This document shows, piece after piece, positions 29,810-43,703 of a stretch of 64,000 nt of DNA. The DNA is from Marinomonas foliarum. Its GTDB lineage: Bacteria > Pseudomonadota > Gammaproteobacteria > Pseudomonadales > Marinomonadaceae. A program made the translations under genes and the position numbers. Each line of letters begins with the position of its first letter. Within the stretch, counting starts at the first letter, position 1. Under the pieces are notes generated by a model. It ran no database searches. It was not told the DNA's origin and saw only the letters and a list, made by a program, of their open reading frames with translations. Location: NCBI RefSeq assembly GCF_003337275.1, contig NZ_QPJQ01000020.1, positions 1 through 64,000 of the forward strand, given 5' to 3'.

Positions 29810-29857
29810 AGAAAAGCACTCTGAAAAATAAAGTGCATCATAACAAATACTGTAACG

Positions 29858-30496
29858 TTAATTCAGCTTACTCAGCAGTATTTTAATGCCCGCAACACCA
29901 AACATCAGCGCGAAGGCAGCATCAAAGCCGCGTTTCATTTTGAAATAGCCTTGGCGAATCCGTGGGTTGGAAAACAGAACAGCGTAGCCCAAATTTATGC
30001 AAGCGCTTTGAATCGTTAATAAGGTAATCACAGACAACAAACCTTGTGTGGAAACCGAACTCGGCATCCCCATGGCAAATAACGATCCTATAAACAAAAT
30101 CGCTTTAGGATTGGTTAAATGGATAGCCAAACCACGAAGATAAGCTGAACGTAAAGATGTTTGTTGAGTCTCTAGCGTGGTCAACATTTTGCTCGTATCC
30201 GATTTATTAGCCATCGCTGAATGACAGGATTTGTAAGCCAAGAATAATAAATATGCCGCACTAACATAACGTAAGCTTTCGAATAGCCAGACATTCGCAT
30301 ACAGCACAGCGCCTAAACCAAAGGCCGCCGAACAAGACCAAAATAGTGAACCTGTTGATATTCCCGATGCCAACGCCAGACCTTGCACGCGCCCCTGATT
30401 CATTGACGTCGATGCAATCGCCAAGGTCGCCGGCCCAGGGCTCGCCATAACAACAAAAGCACCAATTAATATCAGGGCATAGTGGATTTCTTGCAT
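29858..30496 (-). CDS. LysE/RhtB-family exporter
   Basis: A 212-residue membrane protein with about six helices. The N-terminal segment GAFVVMASPGPATLAIAS is the LysE/RhtB signature, and LTNPKAILFIGSLFAM is a second conserved region. Members export amino acids or derivatives; the substrate is unknown. The start overlaps the end of the upstream EamA transporter gene by 25 bp, so the two are one transcription unit and may be translationally coupled. Confidence 0.9.
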   Translation of the reverse strand: MQEIHYALILIGAFVVMASPGPATLAIASTSMNQGRVQGLALASGISTGSLFWSCSAAFGLGAVLYANVWLFESLRYVSAAYLLFLAYKSCHSAMANKSDTSKMLTTLETQQTSLRSAYLRGLAIHLTNPKAILFIGSLFAMGMPSSVSTQGLLSVITLLTIQSACINLGYAVLFSNPRIRQGYFKMKRGFDAAFALMFGVAGIKILLSKLN

Positions 30497-31383
30497 GAAT
30501 CACCTCTCAGTCTTTTAAAGAAACTTAATTGCGGCAATGCCATTTGCCCAACAAACAGACCCAACAAAATCAATACGGCGGCGATGATCTGAGTCGTTTC
30601 TATTGGCTCATGGTAAAACCAATAGCCGCCTAAAATACCAAACACTGGCACCAACAAGGTCATTGGAGCCACGCTCGAAACTGAGTATTTCATTATCATC
30701 TTATTCCAAAACCAGTAACCCAATAATGTCGTTGGGTAAGCTTGAAATAAAACCGAAAACAGCGTCCATTGGGTAAATTGATTCGGCAACTCAGTGACAG
30801 CTTGCATCCCTTCAAAAATAACCGCAAGCAATAACAAAGGCAAAGGTGCAAACAACATCCCCCAGATGTTAAAAGCAAAAACCGCTTTAGTATTCGCGCG
30901 TTTTACAATCAAACCATTAATACTCCAAAACATTGACGCCATTAACACCAGCACTAAACCTTTGCCAGTCACCGAACCGCCTTCAGAGTACATAATCAAA
31001 GCAAGTCCCAGCAACGCCAACCCAGCGCCGAGCAACTTATTATGAGTAATGGTTTCGTTTAGACACAGCCTGCCCACCAATAAACTACTAACGACACTCA
31101 TATCCAACAATAAAGATGCCATTCCCGCCGAGACACCCGCGCCAATCGATAAGGTGGTTAACCCCCAAACACCGACACCAAAAGACAAACCGTAAGCGAT
31201 CAGATAACGCCACGGCACATCTGGTTTTTTAATAAAAAAGATCAAAGGAAACACCGCAAAACTAAAACGCAACGCGGTAAGCACTAAAGGATGAACACTG
31301 TTCACACCCAGCTTGATCACACTAAAATTCAATCCCCACAACGCCATCAAGGCAAACAGCAAGCCAAAGTCTCGTAGTTTCAT
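30472..31383 (-). CDS. EamA/DMT-family transporter
   Basis: A 303-residue membrane protein of the drug/metabolite transporter superfamily with two EamA repeats (about 7-140 and 150-290) and ten predicted helices. Recognisable parts are ALWGLNFSVIKLGVNSVHPL and LVPVFGILGGYWFYHEPI. It likely exports a metabolite or amino acid. It is transcribed divergently from the MocR-type regulator, and their shared promoter region carries a long inverted repeat. Confidence 0.9.
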   Translation of the reverse strand: MKLRDFGLLFALMALWGLNFSVIKLGVNSVHPLVLTALRFSFAVFPLIFFIKKPDVPWRYLIAYGLSFGVGVWGLTTLSIGAGVSAGMASLLLDMSVVSSLLVGRLCLNETITHNKLLGAGLALLGLALIMYSEGGSVTGKGLVLVLMASMFWSINGLIVKRANTKAVFAFNIWGMLFAPLPLLLLAVIFEGMQAVTELPNQFTQWTLFSVLFQAYPTTLLGYWFWNKMIMKYSVSSVAPMTLLVPVFGILGGYWFYHEPIETTQIIAAVLILLGLFVGQMALPQLSFFKRLRGDSCKKSTMP

Positions 31384-31431
31384 TATTCGTTCCTAGTAAA
31401 TAAAATCTGTTGTAAACAATAACGAAGGCGC

Positions 31432-31497
31432 TCAGTTACACGCGGTGTTTCTATTCGAAACTACCGCCTACCTCACAGAAACACCGCGTGTAACTGA
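31432..31497. promoter_or_regulatory. Perfect 21-bp inverted repeat in the eamA-mocR promoter region
   Basis: The arms at 31432-31452 and 31477-31497 are perfect reverse complements with a 24-bp spacer. Each arm also contains its own smaller dyad: ACACGCGGTGT (centre 31443) and ACACCGCGTGT (centre 31486). The two dyads are 43 bp apart, about four helical turns. The arrangement fits two binding sites for a dimeric regulator, most likely the adjacent MocR-type protein. Confidence 0.7.
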
Positions 31498-31617
31498 ACA
31501 TAGCTAAGCATTTCCTTCAGAAAGAAGTATCACTAGAAAACCAAAAAGAACACAGATTCAATTTTTTATAAAAATAAGAGTACAATTTGAAGAAAGGAAA
31601 TACTTTTGGGGAATGTT

Positions 31618-33072
31618 ATGGCGCTTTACGAAACACTGGCTCGGCATTATATAGACGATATAAAAGCGCAAAGACTGCCTGCAGGAAGCCGTTTGCCAGC
31701 GTTACGGACAATGGCAAAACAGCATCAAGTCAGCATGACCACCGCGACTAAAGCCTACGACTACCTTCAACAAACAGGTTGGATTTATGCGCAGCCACAG
31801 TCAGGGTATTTTGTTGCCAACCAAATAGAAGCAACCAGCTTCCCAAGTTTAGACATCAAAAGCATTGAACAGAGGGATCCAAAACGCTTTGCGCCGTTAA
31901 ATGGCTATAACCCTGCCTCGGCGCTTTTTAGTCCGCTTGGCACCTCGATGATTTCGCCAGAATTACAACCTAGCGTCGCACTGCAACGCAGCATTAAACG
32001 TGTCACTCAAAGAGCTGGAAAGCATCTCTTTCAATACCCAGAAACACAAGGCGACAAAGGCCTGAGAAGCGCCCTTGCGGAACATTTTCGTCATAACAAT
32101 CTGGCCTTTTCAGCAGCCGACTTTGTGATTACCAATGGGTGCATTGATGCGGTAAGACTGGCGATCGAAAGCGTAACCAAAGAAGGCGATACCATCGCCA
32201 TAAGCTCTCCTTGCTTTAGTGGCTTGCTCGATTTACTCAGCACCCTTTCCCGCAAAGTGATTGAAATTCCTATTCACGATAATGGCTTGGATTTAGACCA
32301 CTTAGAAACTTTATTACAACAAGGCTTGATCAAAGCTTCTCTGTTCAGCACATCAAATATGAATCCCACCGGTATGACGCTGCCCGTTGAGCAAAAGCAG
32401 GCACTCGCGACACTTGCGGCGAAATACAAAACGCCGATGATAGAAGACGACGTCTATTTCGAATTAAGCCACCAGAAACAACAAACGCTACCCGCAAAAT
32501 ATTGGGATAAAGAAGGATTTGTTATTTGGTGCGGTTCTTTTTCTAAAACATTAGCGGCGGGCTTGCGGCTTGGTTGGTGTGTTCCGGGTCGATATTTAAC
32601 GCCTTATCTTAATCAACACGCCTTAACCAGCTTTGGTGTGAATGGGCTTATACAGTTTTGCATGGCGGAATTTATCAACACCTGTGAATATCGCTCCCAT
32701 GTGAATAAAATACGTACGGTGTTGAACCAACACATCCACTATTATCAACAATTTTTGCTCGAGCACTTACCCGCCACAGCGAAAATCAGTGCTCCACAAG
32801 GCGGCATTGTACTTTGGGTGCAAATCCCCAGTTTAAATGCTGTGCAGCTTGAAAAAGAAGCCAATAAACAGGGCATAGACATCCGCAGCGGAGCGTGTTT
32901 TAGCACCCACGACTTTTACCACGATTGCTTTCGACTCAACTGCGGTTGGCCGCTGCAAAATACTGGGGATAAACACAGTACTTATCAACAATTGATCAGC
33001 TTATGCGGAATAATAGAGCAATTATTAAATTGCCCCATCGCCAAAAATAAAAGATCTCACCTCCCAAATTGA
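31618..33072 (+). CDS. MocR-type regulator (GntR helix-turn-helix plus aminotransferase-like domain)
   Basis: A 484-residue fusion. The winged helix-turn-helix at about 5-70 includes PAGSRLPALRTMAKQHQVSM and QPQSGYFV. The fold type I aminotransferase-like domain follows, with the PLP lysine in the motif GSFSKTLAAGLRLGW, plus STSNMNPTGMTLP and EDDVYFEL. MocR proteins use PLP or a PLP adduct as effector and often regulate the divergent gene. Here that is an EamA-LysE exporter pair, so it may sense an amino compound. The ATG at 31618 has gggga upstream; a TTG at 31606 with aaagga is an alternative start. Confidence 0.9.
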   Translation: MALYETLARHYIDDIKAQRLPAGSRLPALRTMAKQHQVSMTTATKAYDYLQQTGWIYAQPQSGYFVANQIEATSFPSLDIKSIEQRDPKRFAPLNGYNPASALFSPLGTSMISPELQPSVALQRSIKRVTQRAGKHLFQYPETQGDKGLRSALAEHFRHNNLAFSAADFVITNGCIDAVRLAIESVTKEGDTIAISSPCFSGLLDLLSTLSRKVIEIPIHDNGLDLDHLETLLQQGLIKASLFSTSNMNPTGMTLPVEQKQALATLAAKYKTPMIEDDVYFELSHQKQQTLPAKYWDKEGFVIWCGSFSKTLAAGLRLGWCVPGRYLTPYLNQHALTSFGVNGLIQFCMAEFINTCEYRSHVNKIRTVLNQHIHYYQQFLLEHLPATAKISAPQGGIVLWVQIPSLNAVQLEKEANKQGIDIRSGACFSTHDFYHDCFRLNCGWPLQNTGDKHSTYQQLISLCGIIEQLLNCPIAKNKRSHLPN

Positions 33073-33116
33073 AATGAGATCCTTTGCGTTTTAGCTAAGT
33101 CTTTACTGGTTATTTT

Positions 33117-34748
33117 TTAAGGCAAAAGCGGTAACCCAAGCTCTGCAAGGAACTTGTTATGCTCTGCCTTTGCCTTGTCAATAGACTGCTCAATATCCAA
33201 TAGACTTCGGTTAACGTCTTGTAGATTAATTTTCTTTTCTTGTTTTGCTGTACTGACATAACGTGAAATATTCAGATTAAAATCGTTTTTTTCAATCTCA
33301 TCCATTGAAACTCGGCGTGAATAACGCTCTTCTTCCTTACGAAATTGATAAGTGCTGACTATCTTATCAATATCGTTTGGCTCAGCATCTACCCCTTCGC
33401 GCAGCTTATTTTGACGTTTGCCTTTTTCAAAATGTTCCGCCGCGTTAATAAACAATACATCATCGTACTTTTTGCACTTTTTCAGCACTATGATACAAAC
33501 TGGTATGCCAGTAGAGAAAAACAAATTAGCCGGTAATCCGATAACGGTATCGATATGGCCATCTTTTAACAATTTGGTGCGAATACGCGCTTCTGCGCCA
33601 CCACGAAATAAGACACCATGGGGCAGGATAATCGCCATCGTGCCTTCATCACTTAAAAAGTGAAAACCATGCAATAAGAAAGCAAAATCAGCAGCTGATT
33701 TCGGTGCTAGACCATAGCCTTTAAAACGGAAGTTCTCCCCAAGGGCTTCATTTGGCTCCCAGCGGTAACTAAAAGGAGGATTGGCTACCACGGCATCGCA
33801 TAGCAGCTTTTTCGCTGGATTCATTTCATTGAGTAAATCCCAATCATTCAGCAGTGAATCACCATGATGAATCTCGAACTCGGAGTCTTTCATCCCATGT
33901 AACAGCATGTTCATGCGCGCAAGGTTATAGGTGGTAATATTGGTTTCCTGCCCATAGATTCGACCAATACTGCCACCCGCCTCTTTCAGCTTATTACGCA
34001 CATTTAACAACAACGAACCAGAACCACAGGCGAAGTCTAATACCTTATTCAGTTTGTTCTTTTTGCCCATCGCCGGTTCTTGGCTGTCCAGCGTGACAAT
34101 CTCAGACAATATGGTAGAAATTTGCTGCGGTGTATAAAATTCACCGGCTTTCTTGCCCGAACCGGCGGCGAATTGCCCGATCAGATATTCATAGGCGTCA
34201 CCAAGCACATCGCTACTGGTTGAAAATCCGGCTATACCTTCGGCGATTTTGGAAATAATGCTACACAGCTTGGCGTTACGAAGGCTGTAGTTTTTGCCCA
34301 GCTTTTCCGAATCCAGATTAATCTCCGAGAACAAACCCTGAAAACTGTTTTCAAAGGATTTGTTTTCGATGTATTTAAAACCCTGCTGTAAGGTGAGCAA
34401 AAGATCATCTTGCTGTGTTCTGGCAAGCTCAGCGATACTGCTCCACAAATGCGCGGGTTCAATCACATAATGCACTTTACGGCGCATTTGCTTTTCAAAC
34501 TCTGGAATATCCTCTTCGTTTTGTTCATACCACACACTTAACGGCGCGCGTTTATCCTCTTGTGCAAGCTGCGGATAATCCGGTCCCAATTCCCTTTTTG
34601 CGGCGGCTTCATAATTGTCAGACAGATAGCGCAAGAACAGAAAAGACAGCATGTAATCGCGAAAATCATCGGCGTTCATCGCGCCGCGTAAATCATCAGC
34701 AATACCCCAGAGGGTACTGCCCAGTTTGTTTAAATCGTGTTCGGTCAT
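33117..34748 (-). CDS. hsdM: Type I restriction-modification methyltransferase subunit HsdM
   Basis: A 543-residue N6-adenine methyltransferase. The N-terminal helical domain has LGSTLWGIADDLRGAMNADD and YMLSFLFLRYLSDNYE. The SAM-binding motif is VLDFACGSGSLLLNV, and the catalytic motif is VVANPPFSYRW. With HsdS it methylates the recognition site, and it is needed for restriction by HsdR. It is the last gene of the operon; its ATG overlaps the stop of the PrrC-like gene by four bases (ATGA), so the methylase and the nuclease are coupled. Confidence 0.95.
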   Translation of the reverse strand: MTEHDLNKLGSTLWGIADDLRGAMNADDFRDYMLSFLFLRYLSDNYEAAAKRELGPDYPQLAQEDKRAPLSVWYEQNEEDIPEFEKQMRRKVHYVIEPAHLWSSIAELARTQQDDLLLTLQQGFKYIENKSFENSFQGLFSEINLDSEKLGKNYSLRNAKLCSIISKIAEGIAGFSTSSDVLGDAYEYLIGQFAAGSGKKAGEFYTPQQISTILSEIVTLDSQEPAMGKKNKLNKVLDFACGSGSLLLNVRNKLKEAGGSIGRIYGQETNITTYNLARMNMLLHGMKDSEFEIHHGDSLLNDWDLLNEMNPAKKLLCDAVVANPPFSYRWEPNEALGENFRFKGYGLAPKSAADFAFLLHGFHFLSDEGTMAIILPHGVLFRGGAEARIRTKLLKDGHIDTVIGLPANLFFSTGIPVCIIVLKKCKKYDDVLFINAAEHFEKGKRQNKLREGVDAEPNDIDKIVSTYQFRKEEERYSRRVSMDEIEKNDFNLNISRYVSTAKQEKKINLQDVNRSLLDIEQSIDKAKAEHNKFLAELGLPLLP

Positions 34749-35929
34749 GTTGGTTTCCTTGCTGAAGGCTCAGCAAATATTTTCGGCAGGTCAAACTGAA
34801 AGCTGGCAATAAAATCTTTAAGAATCTGTCGAAACAGGTTTTGGTTATCTTCGCCCATTGGAGTAGGTTCAAAAATGGCATAACTGCCGTGACTAAGTAG
34901 GTTAAGAACACGGTTAAACAGTGCTCTATTCTCATCATTGTCGATCTTCTTGAGGCAAAAAGAGATGTCTGAATGCCCAAAAAAAGCAGCGGTCTTTTCC
35001 ATAATGCTACGCAGAGCATTGAAGTGAAATGTGTATAGCTTACCTGTTTCTGGATCGGCGGCTTTTTGTAATTCGGCAAGGCTGGCGACATGATGAAAAA
35101 AAGGCGTGTCTTCAGTAGGCTGAAGAGTATAAATGCCCTCGCTATTAGGACGATGGAGAAAATAGCGTCTGTGTTTTACCTTAGGTTCGTTTTCCTTCGC
35201 TCTACCGATTTCATTGCACATCACATTAAAAAATAATGAATGATGAGAAGAAACGACGATTTTAAGTGGGTTCGATATACCACTCTCGTTTTTACGGTTT
35301 GTCGCACGGCGAAGGAGTTTGGCTAAATCACAGGTAATCGCGACTGCATTGTTATCATCAAGAGAAGAAATCGGATCATCAACATAAATATATTTGACCC
35401 ATTGATAAGATTCGTGACTATCCAGAATCCGCTCGCAGATCGCCATAAATATGCACCATATAAAAATGCTTTCTTCACCTCGCGAAATTTTGATGTTTTC
35501 CTGCGTATCTTTGCTGAATTTCACAAAATAAGGTTTGGAGAATGTTTCACCCCCTTGTCGAATTTCTTTGTAATCAAAATCGAAACCAAAATCAGCATAC
35601 CGACTAAGGTATTCATCGATAGTCGGTTCAAGCCCTAAGCTTGAAAAACCATCAAAAAATCTTGATTCATAATTCACTTTTAATCCGCGTGCAGAATCAT
35701 TTTCAAGATCGTTTTCCCAGGTAAATAAGTCTTCCGTGAAGGCGTTAAAATACAGCGTATCCGGTTTTCCGTTATTGTTACGCTTGCCTCGATCTTTAAA
35801 ATCCATCGATAACCGAGTCTTTCCTGTACGGTTGTAAGCGTACAAAAGAACCAATTCCTTATCGTTTAGGTCATCACGCAATCGGGTTACCAGACTATTC
35901 AGATTTTGATAGGTGCGAACCCCACTCAT
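34745..35929 (-). CDS. prrC: PrrC-like anticodon nuclease
   Basis: A 394-residue protein, close in length to E. coli PrrC (396). The ABC-type NTPase part has a P-loop LLYAYNRTGKTRLS (residues 28-41, an unusual glycine-poor form), an ABC-like signature ISRGEE (148-153) and Walker B YIYVDDPISSLD (180-191). The C-terminal part carries Arg307, Glu311 and His347 in ALRSIMEK and NLLSHGSY, matching the order of the known Arg-Glu-His triad of PrrC. Established for E. coli PrrC: it is held silent by a type Ic restriction complex and cuts tRNA-Lys when phage blocks that complex. The location inside an hsd operon supports the call. The ATG at 35929 has gaggtgag upstream. Confidence 0.8.
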   Translation of the reverse strand: MSGVRTYQNLNSLVTRLRDDLNDKELVLLYAYNRTGKTRLSMDFKDRGKRNNNGKPDTLYFNAFTEDLFTWENDLENDSARGLKVNYESRFFDGFSSLGLEPTIDEYLSRYADFGFDFDYKEIRQGGETFSKPYFVKFSKDTQENIKISRGEESIFIWCIFMAICERILDSHESYQWVKYIYVDDPISSLDDNNAVAITCDLAKLLRRATNRKNESGISNPLKIVVSSHHSLFFNVMCNEIGRAKENEPKVKHRRYFLHRPNSEGIYTLQPTEDTPFFHHVASLAELQKAADPETGKLYTFHFNALRSIMEKTAAFFGHSDISFCLKKIDNDENRALFNRVLNLLSHGSYAIFEPTPMGEDNQNLFRQILKDFIASFQFDLPKIFAEPSARKPT

Positions 35930-36237
35930 GCTCTCACCTCGGCCATAGACTCCCATGCGGAAGAGTAATAAAAAGCGATATTCGCATCCAAATTATGCTG
36001 ACTAATGCGGTACTGCTTGCAATCAGTAGCAGTTGTAAAGAAATCCCTTACAACTGAACCCTCAATAAGCTCTTGTTCTAAATATATATTGTTCAAGTAC
36101 TGACCAATATTCTGCTTACTCATCCCAAACAGCTTTGCCATCATCTTCTGGACAAGCAATACGATTTCATTGACAAAACTTATATCTCGCGTAATTTGGC
36201 TGGCTTCTATTTTGTAAAATACATTACTGTCCGTCAT
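35926..36237 (-). pseudogene. Truncated RhuM-like gene
   Basis: A 103-residue reading frame that matches only the N-terminal third of RhuM-type proteins, which usually have over 300 residues. The match runs from LLVQKMMAKLFGMSKQNIGQ through YLNNIYLEQELIEGSVVRDF to QYRISQHNLDANIA. The frame then turns into YYSSAWESMAEVRA and stops. It shares ATGA with the start of the PrrC-like gene, so it may survive as a short leader that couples translation. RhuM genes often occur inside type I restriction loci. Whether the short product has a function is unknown. Confidence 0.65.
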
Positions 36238-36313
36238 AGAACTACACTCAGGTTATGATCTTGCTCGTTCCTACGCAGGAGAGAGGGTAAATCTGTAAAA
36301 AAGTTTTTACTCA

Positions 36314-37159
36314 TCATAAAAGACTCAACTGAGTTGGCTCCTCAGTAGCTGGCAGAGAAGCAGCTATACCATAAATTCTACGAATAGAGTCATCTTCAAT
36401 CGGTAAATCAATCACTTCGTCGTTGTAACTCAAAACCCGTATTACCAGATACTTAACTTTATTTGTAGGTCGCTTAACTAGCTGTACTCTCATTACATCT
36501 TTGGTGTGCAAAGGCAAAGCGTCTATCTTGACTTTCTCCCAGAATTTACCAGTCAAATCTTTATCAAAAGCAAATGCGCTTTCTGTATCCTCAACAATTT
36601 CTATTTTCCCGCGCCAAGAACGCTTTCCCTTCCAGTCAGGACTGGAAACCGTAATATCAGTCTCACCTAAATATATATGCTCTTCGTCAGGTAGCTTCTT
36701 GATATATAAATAGAAATTATTTTTTGGTATAGGAGGAAAACTTCCCATTCTGAATGAATCAATGCATTTATCATTCTGAAACTGTCTATAAATTTTGTTT
36801 TTACTTTTTATACAATCCCTTGGAAGCTCATCAGGCAATTCAGCAGCTTCTGTGGTGACAAATTCATTTACCTTCTGAATAATAAATTCTCGACCTTTTT
36901 TAGCCCACTCCTCGGAGGTCTCCCCTGTCAATAGAATTGATATAGGGTTAATTCCAATAAAGCTAATTACAACTCCTGTAACAGCTAACGTTGTTTTCCA
37001 TCCACCTTCTTCAGGTATGCCAATTTGTATTTCTACATCAAGACCAAATAACGCAGCAATTTCCTTGTATGACTCTATTAGAACAAGCAAGGAGTCTGAG
37101 TTTATTTCATGCTTTCCTTGAAGATTGCCGAAGTGTATTGGGAGATTAACAGGCTCCAT
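36314..37159 (-). CDS. Unrecognised protein within the hsd operon
   Basis: A 281-residue protein of a family I do not recognise. The N-terminal part is amphipathic (LLVLIESYKEIAALFGLDVE). A hydrophobic segment at about 57-77 (TTLAVTGVVISFIGINPISI) could be a single membrane helix. The rest is soluble, charged and beta-rich by appearance (FYLYIKKLPDEEHIYLGETD, SPDWKGKRSWRGKIEIVED). It follows hsdS by four bases from the ATG at 37159, which has gggga upstream; an earlier ATG at 37174 would overlap hsdS by 11 bp. The position suggests an accessory defence role. By eye the gene is more AT-rich than its neighbours. Confidence 0.75.
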   Translation of the reverse strand: MEPVNLPIHFGNLQGKHEINSDSLLVLIESYKEIAALFGLDVEIQIGIPEEGGWKTTLAVTGVVISFIGINPISILLTGETSEEWAKKGREFIIQKVNEFVTTEAAELPDELPRDCIKSKNKIYRQFQNDKCIDSFRMGSFPPIPKNNFYLYIKKLPDEEHIYLGETDITVSSPDWKGKRSWRGKIEIVEDTESAFAFDKDLTGKFWEKVKIDALPLHTKDVMRVQLVKRPTNKVKYLVIRVLSYNDEVIDLPIEDDSIRRIYGIAASLPATEEPTQLSLL

Positions 37160-37163
37160 GCTC

Positions 37164-38456
37164 TTATTCCCCATCTATCTTAGGGAAGAGCTGCTGCATC
37201 AATCCCTTTTTATGAGCTTTCAACTCTTCAATCTTTTGGGCTTGCGCGGCGATCAGGTCGTCAACGGATGATAAGCATTCAGCGATTTTTTGTTGCTCTC
37301 CCCCAACTGGTGGAAAACAAATCTCAAATTCATTGATCTGTTTAGCGCTTATATGTGGAATCCCGCTACTAGTATTAATTCGATCTACATATGAATGAAA
37401 TTTTCTTGAATGTATATGTTGAAATATAAATTGAATTGTAGATTCACGCTTTGATCTTAAACGTGCTACTCGTTGAATCAGTAACGATCCAGCATCTTTT
37501 TCCGTAACAATCGCCGAATTCTTTCCCACTTTGGAACCATCCATTCCAATAATTAAGTCGTTGACATTCAATCGGTACTTTTCAAGCGGCACAGCATCAC
37601 CCAAGAAAAATCTATCGATCTTTGGGCTATGACGAATGAAGCCTTCTGTAATATTTATCCCTCTCATCAAAGGAATGCCGCTAGGGTCACCTGAAATGTC
37701 CTGGCTTTTGAAAGGAAATCCTGAAAGCAATTTAACTTTTTCACCCAATGAATACAGCACCCACTCCCCTGTATCCCAAAACTCAGGAAAACGCAGTGTG
37801 GGAACGCTTTCTCCCTCAGAGGGAAAGAGGTTTTGCACTAATCCCTTTTTATAGGATTGTAGTGCTTGGTGCTTTTGTATATGCGCGGTGATCAGTTCAT
37901 CAAGGGAAGACAGGCAATCGGCGATTTTTTGTTGTTCTTCTCTATCAACAGGTGTTGGCAATATGATGCTAAAAAAATCATCTGGGCGAATATTCAATAA
38001 TCCATCACTCCGAGCTCCACTCGTGATGAATTTCAGAATCTGCCTTCCATGATAGTTGTTATCAAAGTAACCTTTATAAAAGTCCGGTACATAGCCTGTC
38101 TTGAACCGAAAACTGATAAAGGCGTTAGGGGCAGCGACTTCTTCAAATTCTTTGAGTCTGTAAACTGCTCCCTGTTGAAATGTCTTGGAATTTCCTTTGT
38201 TATAAGAAAATTCTCCGGCCTTTAAAACGATGTAGTTTTTATACTGCTTACCAGATATATCCCTACTAAATTTTTCAGCTTGAGAGACAAATCCTTTCCC
38301 TGCAGTTATGCTAACGGTTGTCAATTTTCTATCGCCAACCTTCTTAGTAATTCGATCACTAATCTCACCTAACTGCGGCGAACTCCAACCCTCAGCATTT
38401 TCAAACGCAGGAAAACGCAGCTCTGGTACTAATTCTTGTTTCATATTCTTACTCAT
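37164..38456 (-). CDS. hsdS: Type I restriction-modification specificity subunit HsdS
   Basis: A 430-residue DNA-recognition subunit with two target-recognition domains. Each begins with a similar phrase (PELRFPAFENAEGWSSPQLG near the start, VPTLRFPEFWDTGEWVLYSL near the middle). Each ends in a conserved helical repeat (EEQQKIADCLSSLDELITAH and GEQQKIAECLSSVDDLIAAQ, both followed by a KKGL motif). This two-fold layout implies a split recognition sequence, which cannot be read here. The ATG at 38456 is preferred; codons before it overlap an hsdR 3' remnant. It is followed closely by the unrecognised gene. Confidence 0.93.
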   Translation of the reverse strand: MSKNMKQELVPELRFPAFENAEGWSSPQLGEISDRITKKVGDRKLTTVSITAGKGFVSQAEKFSRDISGKQYKNYIVLKAGEFSYNKGNSKTFQQGAVYRLKEFEEVAAPNAFISFRFKTGYVPDFYKGYFDNNYHGRQILKFITSGARSDGLLNIRPDDFFSIILPTPVDREEQQKIADCLSSLDELITAHIQKHQALQSYKKGLVQNLFPSEGESVPTLRFPEFWDTGEWVLYSLGEKVKLLSGFPFKSQDISGDPSGIPLMRGINITEGFIRHSPKIDRFFLGDAVPLEKYRLNVNDLIIGMDGSKVGKNSAIVTEKDAGSLLIQRVARLRSKRESTIQFIFQHIHSRKFHSYVDRINTSSGIPHISAKQINEFEICFPPVGGEQQKIAECLSSVDDLIAAQAQKIEELKAHKKGLMQQLFPKIDGE

Positions 38457-38505
38457 ACGCTGCCAACCTCGCAATTTCTCGCCCTTGGGCAAGTTGATTA
38501 AGCAA
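38449..38505 (-). pseudogene. Remnant of a second hsdR 3' end
   Basis: Read on the minus strand, this stretch encodes LLNQLAQGREIARLAAYE and then a stop. The intact hsdR at 39392 ends LLNKLAQGREIAGLAAYE and then a stop. By hand the DNA matches at about 43 of 60 bases, so it is a diverged homologue and not a recent copy. The match fades upstream of about 38506. It implies that an hsdR gene once ended directly before hsdS and that dinD plus the present hsdR replaced it. Confidence 0.8.
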
Positions 38506-38531
38506 GAGAAAACAGACTAGTTTATTGCTCA

Positions 38532-39374
38532 TTATTCTTCCAGCCCATTGGGATTTTTCAGCGCTTTCTTTTCCGCCGATGCTAAGCGCCGTTCGACCTT
38601 TTTCACATCTTCGGCGGGAGCTAGGCTTTCTGGGCGAATACCTCGGCTTAGCAGGGTTTGGCGCACGGCTTCGTTGTTGGTGACATGCTCTTGGGAAATA
38701 TGTTGTTCACGATTCATCGCCTGTTCGCGGGCATTGTGAATGGTGATTTCAGTGGCAAAGTCTTTGGCCTTAAGGATGATGGTGGGGGCGAAATCCGCCA
38801 GTGGGCGGTTGTCTGGCACCTGCCATTGAGCTTTCATAGCTTTGGTGTTTTTGCCAAACAGGGCGGTATCGCCTTTACTGCGAATGAGCGCAAAGTTCTG
38901 ATTGTCGCCGGTTTGCTCAAAAATCACATTCGACAATTCTTTTTCGGTAGCAGACAGCTTTTTGCGCGCCGTTAACCGTTCCGCTTCCAATAGACGCTGC
39001 TCAATCAACTCTGCCTTGCGGGTCTGCATGGCGAAGTAGGTTTGAGCAAAGGCAATCGCTTGTTTGGCTGGGTCACCATTTTGGGCAATGAGATAGCAGG
39101 CGTAGCGCGTCAGCATAATATCGCTAATCTCCCTTTGGCTACCAGAGCCAAGTTCGACCATTTTCCCGACGTCAGCAAAATGGTCGGTGATATCATGATC
39201 CGACACTTCGCAGGCCGTCTTCGCTTTGGATATGGCGTTGAGGAAGTTATCCCATTTGCTATAGCCAAGCAGATGTTGTAAATCCCGCGCGAGCCAATAT
39301 TCTATGCCGTTATCCGTTTGCTGAGCGTGACCTTCGAAGTTTTCTGTCAGGGTGTGGATCATGTCATTTTTCAT
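38532..39374 (-). CDS. dinD: DinD-like DNA-damage-inducible protein
   Basis: A 280-residue protein with the DinD pattern: IEYWLARDLQHLLGYSKWDN, ACEVSDHDITDHFADVGKMV, MLTRYACYLIAQNGDPAKQA and FAQTYFAMQTRKAELIEQ, then a charged helical C terminus. E. coli DinD (274 residues) is SOS-induced and promotes disassembly of RecA filaments. The gene lies 17 bp after hsdR with a strong AAGGAG site and precedes the hsdR remnant and hsdS, so it is co-transcribed with the restriction genes. No LexA box was identified upstream. Its role here is unknown. Confidence 0.85.
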   Translation of the reverse strand: MKNDMIHTLTENFEGHAQQTDNGIEYWLARDLQHLLGYSKWDNFLNAISKAKTACEVSDHDITDHFADVGKMVELGSGSQREISDIMLTRYACYLIAQNGDPAKQAIAFAQTYFAMQTRKAELIEQRLLEAERLTARKKLSATEKELSNVIFEQTGDNQNFALIRSKGDTALFGKNTKAMKAQWQVPDNRPLADFAPTIILKAKDFATEITIHNAREQAMNREQHISQEHVTNNEAVRQTLLSRGIRPESLAPAEDVKKVERRLASAEKKALKNPNGLEE

Positions 39375-39391
39375 TTTGCGCTCCTTGCGGG

Positions 39392-42300
39392 TTATTCATA
39401 GGCCGCTAGCCCTGCGATTTCACGCCCTTGGGCGAGTTTGTTGAGTAGTGGTAACAATTCTTCCATGAGTGCCAGTTCGGCCTGTGTACGTGCTTTCCAA
39501 CCTAAATCTAAGGGTTCCAGTAATTCACTGAGCTTTTCACCATCAAAGATCATGCGATCCATAATGCTGTCAACAAAGCCTTGTAAGGCTGGACGTTCTA
39601 TACCGTGTTGTTCTGCGATAGCGGCGAGTTCATTAGCGGATTTTTCAGCCTTGAATTGTTGGTAACCTTCACGAATGATTTTTTCCGTCAAGCTTTTATC
39701 GGTTGGCAGGCTGTTGATATAAGCCACAATATCGTCGCGTTCATCCATCAGGTTTGCGCTGGAGCTGATTAAATCAATCAGTTGTTGACGACTCATTTTG
39801 TGTTTACTGGGTTTATCATCATCGGTAGATTTGGCGATTAGACCGATAATGTAGTCATAATCGATGACGGCAGAGGCAAACAACACCAATTCAAATTCGA
39901 GCTGTTGTATCGGATCGTTAGGGTCATCGCTACCTTTGGCTTGCTGGGCTTTTAGGCGCTGAGCGGTTTCCAGATAGGAGCCTCTTAAGGCCCGCAGGTC
40001 ATCTTCGGGCAATAGGGTATTGATGGTTTCTTTTTGCGCGTCGTCAAGGTCAGTGTATTGATCGAGATGGGTTTTTAGACGCTGTACTTCTTTGAAACGA
40101 TTGATAAATTCAATACGTGCGGCGTCACCTTTAAGGTTGTAAACGGCTTCTGGCTCACATACTTTGCCGGTGTTCCCATTTATTGCGGCCTCCCCTTGAG
40201 CACCACTTTGGGCTATAAACTGGCTCATTGCCGCGACAGCCTGCTGGTATTTTTCAATGACTTTGGGCGCAGGATCGACCAGCCAGATTTCTTTGGCGCG
40301 GTCTTTATCCTGCCCTGAGAATCGAGCAATTGCAGTATTAACGGCTTCTTCCTGATAACGAAAGTCAAGAATATTGCCATAAGGCTTGGTATCGTTGAGC
40401 ACACGGTTAGTACGTGAAAAGGCTTGAATCAAGCCGTGGTACTTTAGGCTCTTATCCACATACAGAGTGTTAAGGTATTTGGAATCAAAGCCTGTGAGCA
40501 ACATATCTACCACGATAACAATGTCGATTTTGTTTTTATGTGGGTAATCGGCATTGCTGTATTTCTGGTCTTTGATGCGTTGCTGCACGTCCTGATAATA
40601 CAGATCAAACTCATTGATGGTGTGGTTGCTATTATATTGTGCGTTGTAGTCGGCAATAATAGTTTTCAGAGCAGCTTTTTTCTCATCTGGTGCTTGCTGG
40701 TTGTCGGCTTTTTCTTGCGGCAAATCTTCTTGTATTTGCTGCACATCTTTATTGCCTTCAGCTGGCGGTGAAAACACACAGGCGATATTTAACGGTATAT
40801 AAGCGTCATCTTCTGCGAGTTTTTGTTGCTGGGCCTGTTTAAATAGCTGGTAATACTCAATGGCGTTGTTGATTGAGGCAGTGGCCAATATCGCGTTAAA
40901 GCGGCGGTGATTGGTCGCTGCATTGTGTTTTTTCAGTATCTCCGTGACTACAGCCTCAGTGGATGGCAGCTTAAGCTTTACTTGCTTTTGCTTACCCGCT
41001 TTGTCGCCTATGACCTTTTTGGCTTTTTCACCAAAATAGTCGATATGAAAACGCAGCACATTGCGGTCTTCAATGGCATTGGTGATGGTGTAAGGGTGCA
41101 ACTGCTGTTGAAAAATATCTTCGGTAGTTTTGTATGACCCTACCGTGCCATCAATTTGTTTGTAAGTGGCGTTTTCTTCAAATATGGGGGTGCCCGTGAA
41201 ACCAAACAATTGTGCCTTAGGGAAGAAGGTTTTGATTGCTTGGTGGTTATCACCAAATTGGGAGCGATGGCATTCGTCAAAGATAAAAACGATTCTTTGG
41301 TTACGTAGCGGTTCAAGACGCTCTTTGTAGGTTTGCTTGCCATTCTGTTTATGTAGCTGATTGCGCTTGCTGTTTTCATCCAATGCAAGGCCAAGCTTTT
41401 GAATAGTGGTGACGATGACTTTATCGGCATAGTCTTCCGATAACATGCGTCTTACTAAGGCTTCGGTGTTGGTATTTTCTTCGACACAACCTTCTTGAAA
41501 CTTGTTGAATTCCTCACGGGTCTGGCGGTCAAGATCTTTACGGTCGACCACAAATAAGCATTTATCAATGTCTGGATTGTCTTTCAGCAATGTGGACGTT
41601 TTAAACGATGTCAGAGTTTTACCGCTGCCGGTGGTATGCCAGATATAACCGTTACCCCGATTTTGATGGATACAATCGACTATCGCCTTCACCGCATAGA
41701 TTTGGTAAGGGCGCATGATCATCAGTTTTTGCTCACTGGCAACTAACACCATATAACGGCTGATCATCTGGCCTAAGGTACATTTTTTTAGGAAATGGTC
41801 AGCAAAATCATCCAAATGAGTGATCTTGGAGTTGTCTTCACGAGCAAGTTGATAAATAGGCAGAAAGCGTTCATCGGCATTAAAACTGAAATGCTGATTA
41901 TGATTGTTGGCAAAGTAGAGAGTGTTACTTTGATTGCTGACAATGAAAAGCTGCATAAAACACAACAGTGTGTTGGTGTAGCCATTGCCGATGTCGTTTT
42001 TGTATTCGACAATTTGCTCCATAGCTCGGCGTGGTGACAGCTCTAGGGTTTTCAACTCAATTTGCACAACAGGAACGCCGTTGATTAACAAAATAACATC
42101 GTAGCGGTGATGGCTATTGTCGGTATTGATGCGTAATTGATTGATGACTTCAAAGTCGTTTTTGCACCAGTCCTTGATATTAACCAAGGTGCATTGCAGC
42201 GGCGTGCCGTCATCGCGCTGAAACGTATTGCGTTCTCGAAGGGTTTTAGCGGCTGAAAAAACATCGGCATTGACGATTTCATCGCGTAGGCGGGCGAACT

Positions 42301-42454
42301 CAGAATCCGTCAGTTTGACGTAGTTGAGGGCTTCAAACTTTTCACGAAAATTTTGTTCGAGCGTGACTTTATCGCGAATATCTGGGCGATAGCTGTATTT
42401 GAGTCCCTGCAGCTTGGCAATAAGGTTATTTTCTATACTATGCTCTTTAATCAT
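39392..42454 (-). CDS. hsdR: Type I restriction endonuclease/translocase subunit HsdR
   Basis: A 1020-residue restriction subunit. The nuclease domain has the PD-(D/E)xK core YDVILLINGVPVVQIELKTL. The translocase domain has Walker A HTTGSGKTLTSFK, the DEAD-like motif FIFDECHRSQFG, GFTGTPIF and later helicase motifs including VDMLLTGFDSKYLNTLYVDK and QAFSRTNRVL. It pumps DNA and cuts away from unmethylated sites. The wording around GYIWHTTGSGKTLTSF and DECHRSQFG is close to type IC enzymes such as EcoR124, the class associated with PrrC. It is the promoter-proximal gene of the operon. Confidence 0.95.
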   Translation of the reverse strand: MIKEHSIENNLIAKLQGLKYSYRPDIRDKVTLEQNFREKFEALNYVKLTDSEFARLRDEIVNADVFSAAKTLRERNTFQRDDGTPLQCTLVNIKDWCKNDFEVINQLRINTDNSHHRYDVILLINGVPVVQIELKTLELSPRRAMEQIVEYKNDIGNGYTNTLLCFMQLFIVSNQSNTLYFANNHNQHFSFNADERFLPIYQLAREDNSKITHLDDFADHFLKKCTLGQMISRYMVLVASEQKLMIMRPYQIYAVKAIVDCIHQNRGNGYIWHTTGSGKTLTSFKTSTLLKDNPDIDKCLFVVDRKDLDRQTREEFNKFQEGCVEENTNTEALVRRMLSEDYADKVIVTTIQKLGLALDENSKRNQLHKQNGKQTYKERLEPLRNQRIVFIFDECHRSQFGDNHQAIKTFFPKAQLFGFTGTPIFEENATYKQIDGTVGSYKTTEDIFQQQLHPYTITNAIEDRNVLRFHIDYFGEKAKKVIGDKAGKQKQVKLKLPSTEAVVTEILKKHNAATNHRRFNAILATASINNAIEYYQLFKQAQQQKLAEDDAYIPLNIACVFSPPAEGNKDVQQIQEDLPQEKADNQQAPDEKKAALKTIIADYNAQYNSNHTINEFDLYYQDVQQRIKDQKYSNADYPHKNKIDIVIVVDMLLTGFDSKYLNTLYVDKSLKYHGLIQAFSRTNRVLNDTKPYGNILDFRYQEEAVNTAIARFSGQDKDRAKEIWLVDPAPKVIEKYQQAVAAMSQFIAQSGAQGEAAINGNTGKVCEPEAVYNLKGDAARIEFINRFKEVQRLKTHLDQYTDLDDAQKETINTLLPEDDLRALRGSYLETAQRLKAQQAKGSDDPNDPIQQLEFELVLFASAVIDYDYIIGLIAKSTDDDKPSKHKMSRQQLIDLISSSANLMDERDDIVAYINSLPTDKSLTEKIIREGYQQFKAEKSANELAAIAEQHGIERPALQGFVDSIMDRMIFDGEKLSELLEPLDLGWKARTQAELALMEELLPLLNKLAQGREIAGLAAYE

Positions 42455-42663
42455 GAGTTCGCCCTACACTATCCATTTTTTAAACTCGCTAATTTTAGCA
42501 TTGATAAGTAATTTATCTTCATCAACTTTCAAAAAAATATGGTGTTGTTGTTTACACACAACCGATTGCACCTTTACTCCTTTAATCCTAACCTTTAGAT
42601 CAATAAAAGCGCCCCAAACCCTTTAGGTAAGTAATAAGAGAAACACTAAGAGGAATAATGATT

Positions 42664-42909
42664 ATGTCTTATCGCTCTGTAAAATTGGTTAAACGCCCTA
42701 CACTGGAAATTACCGAAGATGCCTTCAATATTGTTAGCCAAGATCTTCCAACGCCATCTGAAGGCGAAGTACTTGTAAAACTCTCTCACCTATCTTTAGA
42801 CCCTGCTATGCGTGGTTGGATGAGCCCTGATGAAAACAGCTACATTCCACCAGTAAAATTAGGCGATACCATGCGCGCCAGTGACATAGGTGAAGTGGTC
42901 AAAACGTAA
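42664..42909 (+). pseudogene. Truncated zinc-independent NADP-dependent oxidoreductase (CurA/MDR-like)
   Basis: An 81-residue frame that matches the N-terminal quarter of MDR enzymes of the CurA/YncB type, which normally have about 330-345 residues. The retained part includes VKLVKRPTLEITEDAFNIV, LSHLSLDPAMRGWMSP and DTMRASDIGEV. It stops at VKT and a terminator follows at once. The NADP-binding and catalytic parts are lost. AGAGGA lies nine bases before the ATG at 42664, so the start region is intact. It lies beside the restriction operon, which suggests loss during local rearrangement. Confidence 0.8.
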
Positions 42910-42942
42910 AAGGGAATGGCCAAGTGGGTCATTCCCTTTTTC
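42907..42942. terminator. Bidirectional terminator
   Basis: The 11-bp arms aaaagggaatg and cattccctttt flank gccaagtgggt and carry A and T runs on the two sides. It lies between the truncated oxidoreductase and the convergent SDR gene. Confidence 0.85.
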
Positions 42943-42974
42943 ATTTAGATCGATGTCATAAGCCGAATGGTGAA

Positions 42975-43703
42975 TTATAGATCAAACTGCGACGGCAACA
43001 TCACCACATCCCGAATCGTCACATGACGAGGACGCGTTAACATAAAGATCAAAGCTTCTGCCACATCGCTGGCATCCATCAAGCTGCCTTTCGCTTTCGC
43101 CTCTGCAAGTTTCTCTGCTGGCCAATCAGATAATAACGACGTGATCACTGGACCAGGCGATACCGAGCCAACGCGAATACCATGTTGACCCACTTGACGA
43201 CGTACGGTTTGCACAAAGCAATTCATCGCCCATTTCGATGACGCATAAACCGGTTCCCAAGGCGTCGGATAGTGCCCCGCCAAAGAGCTGGTGACTAATA
43301 TATCGCCCACGCCTCGTTCTATCATATGCGGCAAAACATCACGGACATTTTTCATCACCACGTTAATGTTTAAATTGAGCATCCGATCTATCGCATCATT
43401 TTCGGCATCAACGAGATCTCCGCCCACATACAAGCCCGCATTGGCGTGAAAAATATCAATGACGTTGGTTTTTGCTAAAATGTTTGGTATCAAGGCAGCG
43501 CACGCGGCAGGATCCAATAAATCCACCACTAAGGTCACAACCGCACCGCCATGTTTGTCTTGCAACGCCTTTAGTGCCGACTCATCTCGGTCAACAATAA
43601 CTACCTGTGCGCCTTCGGCCATCATAGCTTCGGCACTGGCAAGACCGATTCCGGATGCGCCACCCGTCACGACAGCGACTTTCCCTGTTAATGTTTGAGA
43701 CAT
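42975..43703 (-). CDS. SDR-family oxidoreductase, ribitol 2-dehydrogenase-like
   Basis: A 242-residue short-chain dehydrogenase. The nucleotide site is VTGGASGIGLASAEAM, the NAG-type motif is HANAG, and the catalytic Tyr and Lys are in EPVYASSKWAM after SSLAG. The wording IDIFHANAGLYVGG, EPVYASSKWA, VRRQVGQHGIRVGSVSPGPV and TRPRHVTIRDVVMLP is close to Klebsiella ribitol 2-dehydrogenase RbtD as I recall it. A polyol or a related secondary alcohol is a plausible substrate. No sugar-alcohol operon surrounds it, so the substrate is open. Confidence 0.87.
   Translation of the reverse strand: MSQTLTGKVAVVTGGASGIGLASAEAMMAEGAQVVIVDRDESALKALQDKHGGAVVTLVVDLLDPAACAALIPNILAKTNVIDIFHANAGLYVGGDLVDAENDAIDRMLNLNINVVMKNVRDVLPHMIERGVGDILVTSSLAGHYPTPWEPVYASSKWAMNCFVQTVRRQVGQHGIRVGSVSPGPVITSLLSDWPAEKLAEAKAKGSLMDASDVAEALIFMLTRPRHVTIRDVVMLPSQFDL

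Follow-up and report, generated by a model that had tools for sequence, protein, structure and literature searches.

The question raised by this locus is whether an open reading frame placed directly before hsdM, within a type I restriction operon of Marinomonas foliarum, encodes a PrrC anticodon nuclease, and whether its gene order and its P-loop set it apart from other members of that family. The window, i.e. the whole stretch of DNA that was analysed, comprises 64,000 nucleotides, and the features discussed are listed in Table 1. Our preferred reading, which is drawn from sequence comparison and to which we assign a probability of roughly 0.85, is that the gene would encode a PrrC-family latent anticodon nuclease of a branch with the gene order hsdR-hsdS-prrC-hsdM (R-S-C-M), within the operon of its own type I enzyme.

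Table 1 Features of the hsd-prrC locus, in window coordinates.
Feature	Position	Strand	Remarks
hsdM	33117..34748	-	543 aa, open
prrC (ABC-NTPase + HEPN-type anticodon-nuclease domain)	34745..35929	-	394 aa, open
Arg307-to-His347 stretch, including Glu311 and Arg340	34889..35011	-	computed from residue numbers
P-loop AYNRTGKT (residues 31-38)	35816..35839	-	computed from ATG at 35929
RhuM-like stub	35926..36237	-	103 aa; matches N-terminal part of PADLOC PDC-S05 models
gene X	36314..37174	-	286 aa, or 281 from internal ATG
hsdS	37164..38492	-	442 aa, open
DinD-like gene	38532..39374	-	280 aa; NCBIfam PRK11525, Pfam Bro-N
hsdR	39392..42454	-	1020 aa, open; Pfam EcoR124_C, NCBIfam TIGR00348
hsd-prrC islet	33015..42564	.	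absent between aligned flanks in same-genus L158, L159; ~9.55 kb

The prrC gene starts with the ATG at 35929 and stops at 34747-34745 on the minus strand; use of an in-frame upstream ATG would give a length of 403 residues. Its stop overlaps the start of hsdM in an ATGA (34748-34745), and its own start is overlapped by the stop of the RhuM-like stub, again as ATGA. The 394-residue gene, its ABC-type motifs including AYNRTGKT, the residues Arg307, Glu311 and His347, and the four-base overlap with hsdM had all been listed in the earlier note, and were confirmed on the minus strand. When searched against PADLOC, residues 15-390 of the 403-residue reading matched the PrrC model PDLC02360 with 425 bits (E 5.4e-128), the weaker PADLOC matches being to PDC-S06 models at 35.5 bits and less. 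Pfam assigned AAA_13 (2.1e-11), NCBIfam gave no match to the protein, and in PHROGs the protein matched phrog_23661, a family without a name, at 183 bits. A tblastn search of a phage collection with prrC gave no match, and in a PDB sequence search no match was better than E 0.074, 14 of the 15 matches being to cytochrome c peroxidase. The protein contains the sequences AYNRTGKT, SRGEE, YVDDPISSLD and SSHH, the assignment of which to individual ABC-NTPase motifs is our own assumption. The list of PrrC motifs in the available part of PMC2610378 consists of Walker A, signature, Walker B/D-loop and linchpin His, and 394 residues falls within the 341-416 residue range given there for PrrC. The block TLYFNAFTEDLFTWENDL is common to both PrrC branches and is a candidate for the 15-residue PrrC box of the N-domain. 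As hsdR, hsdS and hsdM are all present beside prrC, the gene is linked to a type I hsd system. Profile, motifs and hsd genes thus support the original suggestion of a PrrC-like anticodon nuclease within a type I operon, and we hold it as almost certain that the gene is a PrrC.

The catalytic residues were followed across 101 aligned rows, made up of the window, 79 of the best 80 of 558 loci, 11 further R-S-C-M loci and 10 loci in E. coli order. The triad proposed earlier stood when examined in these relatives: Arg307 and Glu311 are each present in 101 of 101 rows and His347 in 100, as is Arg340. The spacing Arg340-x6-His347 fits the HEPN Rx4-6H motif, which is assigned to PrrC and RloC in the available part of PMC3710099. 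One row, L061 251-1441, is the sole case among the 101 in which the catalytic His is replaced (by Arg); this copy may be inactive, or the replacement may stem from faulty assembly. An AlphaFold model of PrrC, built with an 80-sequence alignment, has a mean pLDDT of 81.8 and a pTM of 0.76, with low confidence at the P-loop (blocks across residues 31-60 scoring 60, 68 and 74). The modelled C-terminal helices span residues 280-290, 301-316, 332-346 and 360-377. Arg307 and Glu311 are predicted to lie approximately one turn apart on the helix 301-316, and His347 just past the helix 332-346. The best structure matches in the PDB are the Rad50, RecN and SMC heads and PtuA; with Foldseek, TM-scores by query were low, 0.22-0.30 for the eight matches having E values of 0.001 or less.

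The operon reads, on the minus strand, hsdR, DinD-like gene, hsdS, gene X, RhuM-like stub, prrC and hsdM. As previously claimed, prrC is found directly before hsdM and distant from hsdR, approximately 3.5 kb beyond the hsdR end. The further claim that this order is unusual is true in comparison with E. coli EcoprrI only, for which the available part of PMC3014915 gives hsdM-hsdS-prrC-hsdR (M-S-C-R); among the nearest relatives, and in the PrrC170 system described below, the order is the usual one. Indeed, the full R-S-C-M set is found in 66 of the best 80 among 558 confirmed loci, a set that favours the window's own branch because it was ranked by closeness to the window, and gene order was therefore rejected as a novelty. 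Taking one gene at a time over the same best 80 of 558, an upstream hsdS is present in 74, a downstream hsdM in 77 and an upstream hsdR in 70, while the E. coli order is seen in none, neighbours having been searched with window-type queries only. In thirteen of the remaining 14, at least one of the genes was not called, in most cases close to the end of a contig. The hsdR call is missing in five loci, and both hsdR and hsdS calls in four where prrC starts within 300 bases of the stretch end; L074 and L097 are without hsdM, the stretch ending soon after prrC; L109 is without an hsdS call; and L071, where hsdM was not called, has an hsdR-like match of only 33 bits lying 4.9 kb downstream. The last, L102, is reordered, with hsdS-like pieces after hsdM and not before prrC. 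Exact four-base overlaps were found in 45 of these 80 for prrC/hsdM and in 61 of 80 for hsdS/prrC, counts that hinge on the chosen start codons, which for L077, L085 and L086 are too far upstream.

Five of seven plasmid R-S-C-M loci have all four genes annotated in that order; in L032 and L035 some genes are unannotated and sequence matches give R-S-C-M, with the L035 hsdR in two frames. The M-S-C-R order is present in all ten E. coli-type loci examined, five of which are annotated, while the other five have a further gene before hsdR. In either layout, prrC thus follows hsdS if no gene intervenes. On the 101-row tree, obtained by a quick method with SH-aLRT support only, a single change separates R-S-C-M from M-S-C-R (SH-aLRT 99). 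L076, with a prrC frame in two pieces, was excluded from the 80-row alignment and the tree, in which the other 79 loci were all labelled R-S-C-M, including the exceptions with missing or reordered genes. L161-L164 are not in the tree, L033 was excluded as a copy of L048, and the L129 branch is very long (6.57). In a 16-row alignment, the frames of ten rows (L002-L010 and L012) run from stop to stop, and their first residues may precede the start codon.

The two branches also differ in the stretch that contacts the anticodon in E. coli PrrC, which reads TEDTPFFHHV in the window and GDSNKSFSYH in an E. coli-type PrrC; we take the letters NKSFSYH to be the PrrC tRNA-recognition sequence. NKSFSYH is found in six of ten E. 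coli-order rows and none of 91 R-S-C-M rows, whereas TP.F.HV is found in 84 of 91 R-S-C-M rows and none of the ten in E. coli order. This pattern would suit a PrrC branch that cuts another tRNA, its contact stretch having diverged from that of E. coli PrrC, and the available part of a review states that PrrCs differ in their recognition sequence and may therefore differ in substrate (PMC3014915). We nevertheless consider a different target unlikely. A similar D-S-P-F form occurs in some E. coli-order proteins, and PrrC170 of Klebsiella quasipneumoniae points to tRNA-Lys. According to the available text of PMC11555353, PrrC170 was cloned as HsdR, HsdS, PrrC and HsdM with 300 nt before hsdR and shares 35% identity with EcoPrrC. 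It is described there as conferring protection against T1 and T7 and as halting growth upon expression, and tRNA sequencing identified tRNA-Lys as its target. From its gene list and identity, we infer that PrrC170 belongs to the R-S-C-M branch; the PrrCs of the plasmid R-S-C-M loci L036, L117 and L123 share 34% identity with that of L118, which is of the E. coli type. In the window's genome, a 15-base loop pattern has four matches, all within tRNA-Lys(UUU) genes. Given these four matches and the target of PrrC170, tRNA-Lys is the best guess by analogy, and on balance the probable target of the window PrrC.

The P-loop had been singled out in the earlier note for lacking the usual glycines, a point that does not survive as an oddity. 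Ala occupies position 1 in 100 of the 101 rows, the remaining row having a gap there, and E. coli-type PrrC shares this Ala. An Arg at position 4 distinguishes a subclade: the residue is Arg in 49 of the 101 rows, Gly in 49, Cys in one, Ala in one and unread in one (Arg 47, Gly 31, Cys 1 and gap 1 in the 80-row alignment). A single change on the tree accounts for Arg at position 4, and the 49 rows that carry it all lie within a 50-row group with a support of 100, the fiftieth being without a P-loop; the Arg is therefore a fixed subclade marker, as opposed to decay. A degenerate P-loop was rejected, Asn33, Gly36, Lys37 and Thr38 being invariant in the 79 of 80 rows of the 80-row alignment that have the loop. 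A fixed substitution of this kind, arising once and shared by almost half of the rows, might suggest, in keeping with the altered nucleotide control proposed in the earlier note, that Arg34 alters GTP, ATP or dTTP dependence in the subclade, but the same four unchanged residues argue against it, and we find this reading more doubtful than that of a different tRNA. In the literature searched, which was without most subscription papers, no naming of the R-S-C-M branch or of its P-loop Arg was found. Since both gene position and P-loop are common to many relatives, the window PrrC is an ordinary protein of known type, a genuine and probably working member of a common branch.

The operon carries two extra genes, gene X and the RhuM-like stub, between hsdS and prrC; the name RhuM is our own assumption for a stub matched by PADLOC PDC-S05. 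Through the overlap of its stop codon with the start of prrC, the stub could keep prrC translationally coupled. Gene X gave no match in Pfam, NCBIfam, PADLOC, PHROGs or plasmids and was matched in two of 398 phylum genomes, one of which is the window's own. A homologue (421 bits) occupies the hsdS-prrC slot of locus L131, and gene X is a candidate unnamed embedded defence gene. The cargo of this slot varies: L038 carries a DUF1016/YhcG nuclease there, whereas L098 and L133 carry Fic proteins. Plasmid R-S-C-M loci of E. coli and Klebsiella have two extra genes between hsdR and hsdS (L036 3943-7730, L117 3967-7754, L123 2970-6757), for which the annotations are TrlF family AAA-like ATPase and RNA-binding domain protein in L036 and L117, and histidinol-phosphatase and RecG in L123. 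Examples of genes embedded in type I operons include tgvAB of Vibrio cholerae (PMC11411939) and DarTG2 of E. coli (PMC12255303), as given in the available parts of these papers. Directly past hsdM, at 33085-33049, lies a 15-pair stem with a T-rich tail, a consensus match of a kind not clearly above shuffles: the terminator scan gave 13 sites versus 9.3 in shuffles (sd 3.1). The promoter scan gave 11 sites versus 19.6 in shuffles.

In the same-genus loci L158 and L159, matches to window positions 31526-33014 and approximately 42563-42899 adjoin, with around 40 bases between them. As these flanking matches are neighbours, the intervening hsd-prrC stretch is absent there, and the operon is, to judge from the flanks, an inserted islet. 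A third same-genus locus, L160, has no match to window 29851-42975 and is therefore without the operon and more. At 42658-42909 (+) the window contains an 83-residue ORF that we take to be the start of an oxidoreductase gene; L158 and L159 have approximately 780 more bases at this point, and the gene thus seems truncated in the window. In a search of 37 genomes, of which 24 (the window's own among them) belong to the window's genus, prrC was matched in five: the window's own and four others of the same genus, with 34-37% identity in the best segment and with E. coli-type genes as best matches. Of these four, L161 and L164 have the order M-S-C-R, with one gene ahead of hsdR in L161; L162 shows a gap before hsdR, and L163 is cut at the contig end before hsdM. 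Their E. coli-type prrC loci place both PrrC branches in one genus. A close HsdM (E up to 1e-150) was found in 14 genomes of a 369-genome class sample, and a prrC match adjoins it in seven; three of these matches are full-length and the other four, as far as the examined stretch extends, are partial. Four of the 14 loci have no prrC match upstream, and three are cut at the contig end on that side. The R-M enzyme hence does not need prrC, which is, on these counts, an optional passenger of the window's hsd lineage.

The reduction of the RhuM-like neighbour to a stub, the presence of other cargo in the hsdS-prrC slot elsewhere, and the two-piece prrC of L076 (one of the best 80 of 558 loci) would be in line with prrC being a decaying remnant. 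In the window, however, all four of prrC, hsdM, hsdS and hsdR have open frames, and prrC retains its full set of motifs, making decay very improbable. It is hardly credible that the protein is instead an RloC-like self-regulated anticodon nuclease, an identity we rejected: it shares the ABC + HEPN organisation and triad, but has 394 residues versus 658-897 in the available part of PMC2610378, contains no CxxC and is encoded inside a complete hsd operon.

Returning to a PrrC of the R-S-C-M branch, we consider it likely that the latent and triggered logic applies to the window protein. PrrC would be bound to the HsdR/HsdM/HsdS complex and kept silent. Disturbance of the Hsd complex by a phage anti-restriction factor would lead to NTP hydrolysis in the ABC domain, freeing the C-terminal HEPN RNase, which would cut a tRNA anticodon loop, most likely that of tRNA-Lys(UUU), and so stop translation. 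Phage T7 carries the anti-restriction protein Ocr, and an Ocr-like factor as the trigger is speculation. As regards a possible type Ic assignment of the locus, HsdR matches Pfam EcoR124_C with 225 bits, but HsdR and HsdM are 32% and 34% identical, respectively, to their counterparts in the E. coli-type prr locus L118, and the partner enzyme therefore differs along with prrC; HsdS aligns with that of an E. coli-type prr locus over 10 residues only. In view of this divergence of all three Hsd proteins, the silencing contacts and the trigger could differ. A bolder proposal, which we regard as rather improbable, is that R-S-C-M constitutes a second, long-separate PrrC/type I pairing, of which the Arg-P-loop subclade may differ from E. 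coli PrrC in its anti-restriction trigger and nucleotide signal, or in the tRNA cut.

The following comparisons with known systems draw on the available parts of the respective papers. Neighbourhoods combining PrrC-like, R-M and RhuM genes were noted in 2013 (PMC3710099), and the same three kinds of gene are together in the window, although its RhuM-like gene is merely an N-terminal stub of 103 residues. RloC (PMC2610378) likewise combines an ABC-NTPase with an Arg-x3-Glu ... His triad, but is approximately twice the size of the window PrrC, has a coiled coil and a CxxC zinc hook, and is mostly unlinked to R-M. The PrrC170 system has the same hsdR, hsdS, prrC and hsdM order, to which the window adds the DinD-like gene, gene X and the RhuM-like stub; at P-loop position 4, where the window has Arg, Gly is found in three related PrrCs encoded on plasmids of Klebsiella and E. 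coli. E. coli PrrC with EcoprrI (PMC3014915) has in common with the window the ABC-NTPase and Arg-Glu-His triad, the size, the type I linkage and the location of prrC after hsdS if no gene intervenes, but differs in its M-S-C-R order, in the Gly at P-loop position 4 and in its tRNA-contact stretch. The identity between the window PrrC and an E. coli-type PrrC is 30%. What appears odd against the E. coli textbook case is a large PrrC branch that has a type I partner of its own and distinct signatures in the tRNA-contact stretch and the P-loop, and a comparison of the two branches could reveal which Hsd, nucleotide and tRNA contacts PrrC really needs.
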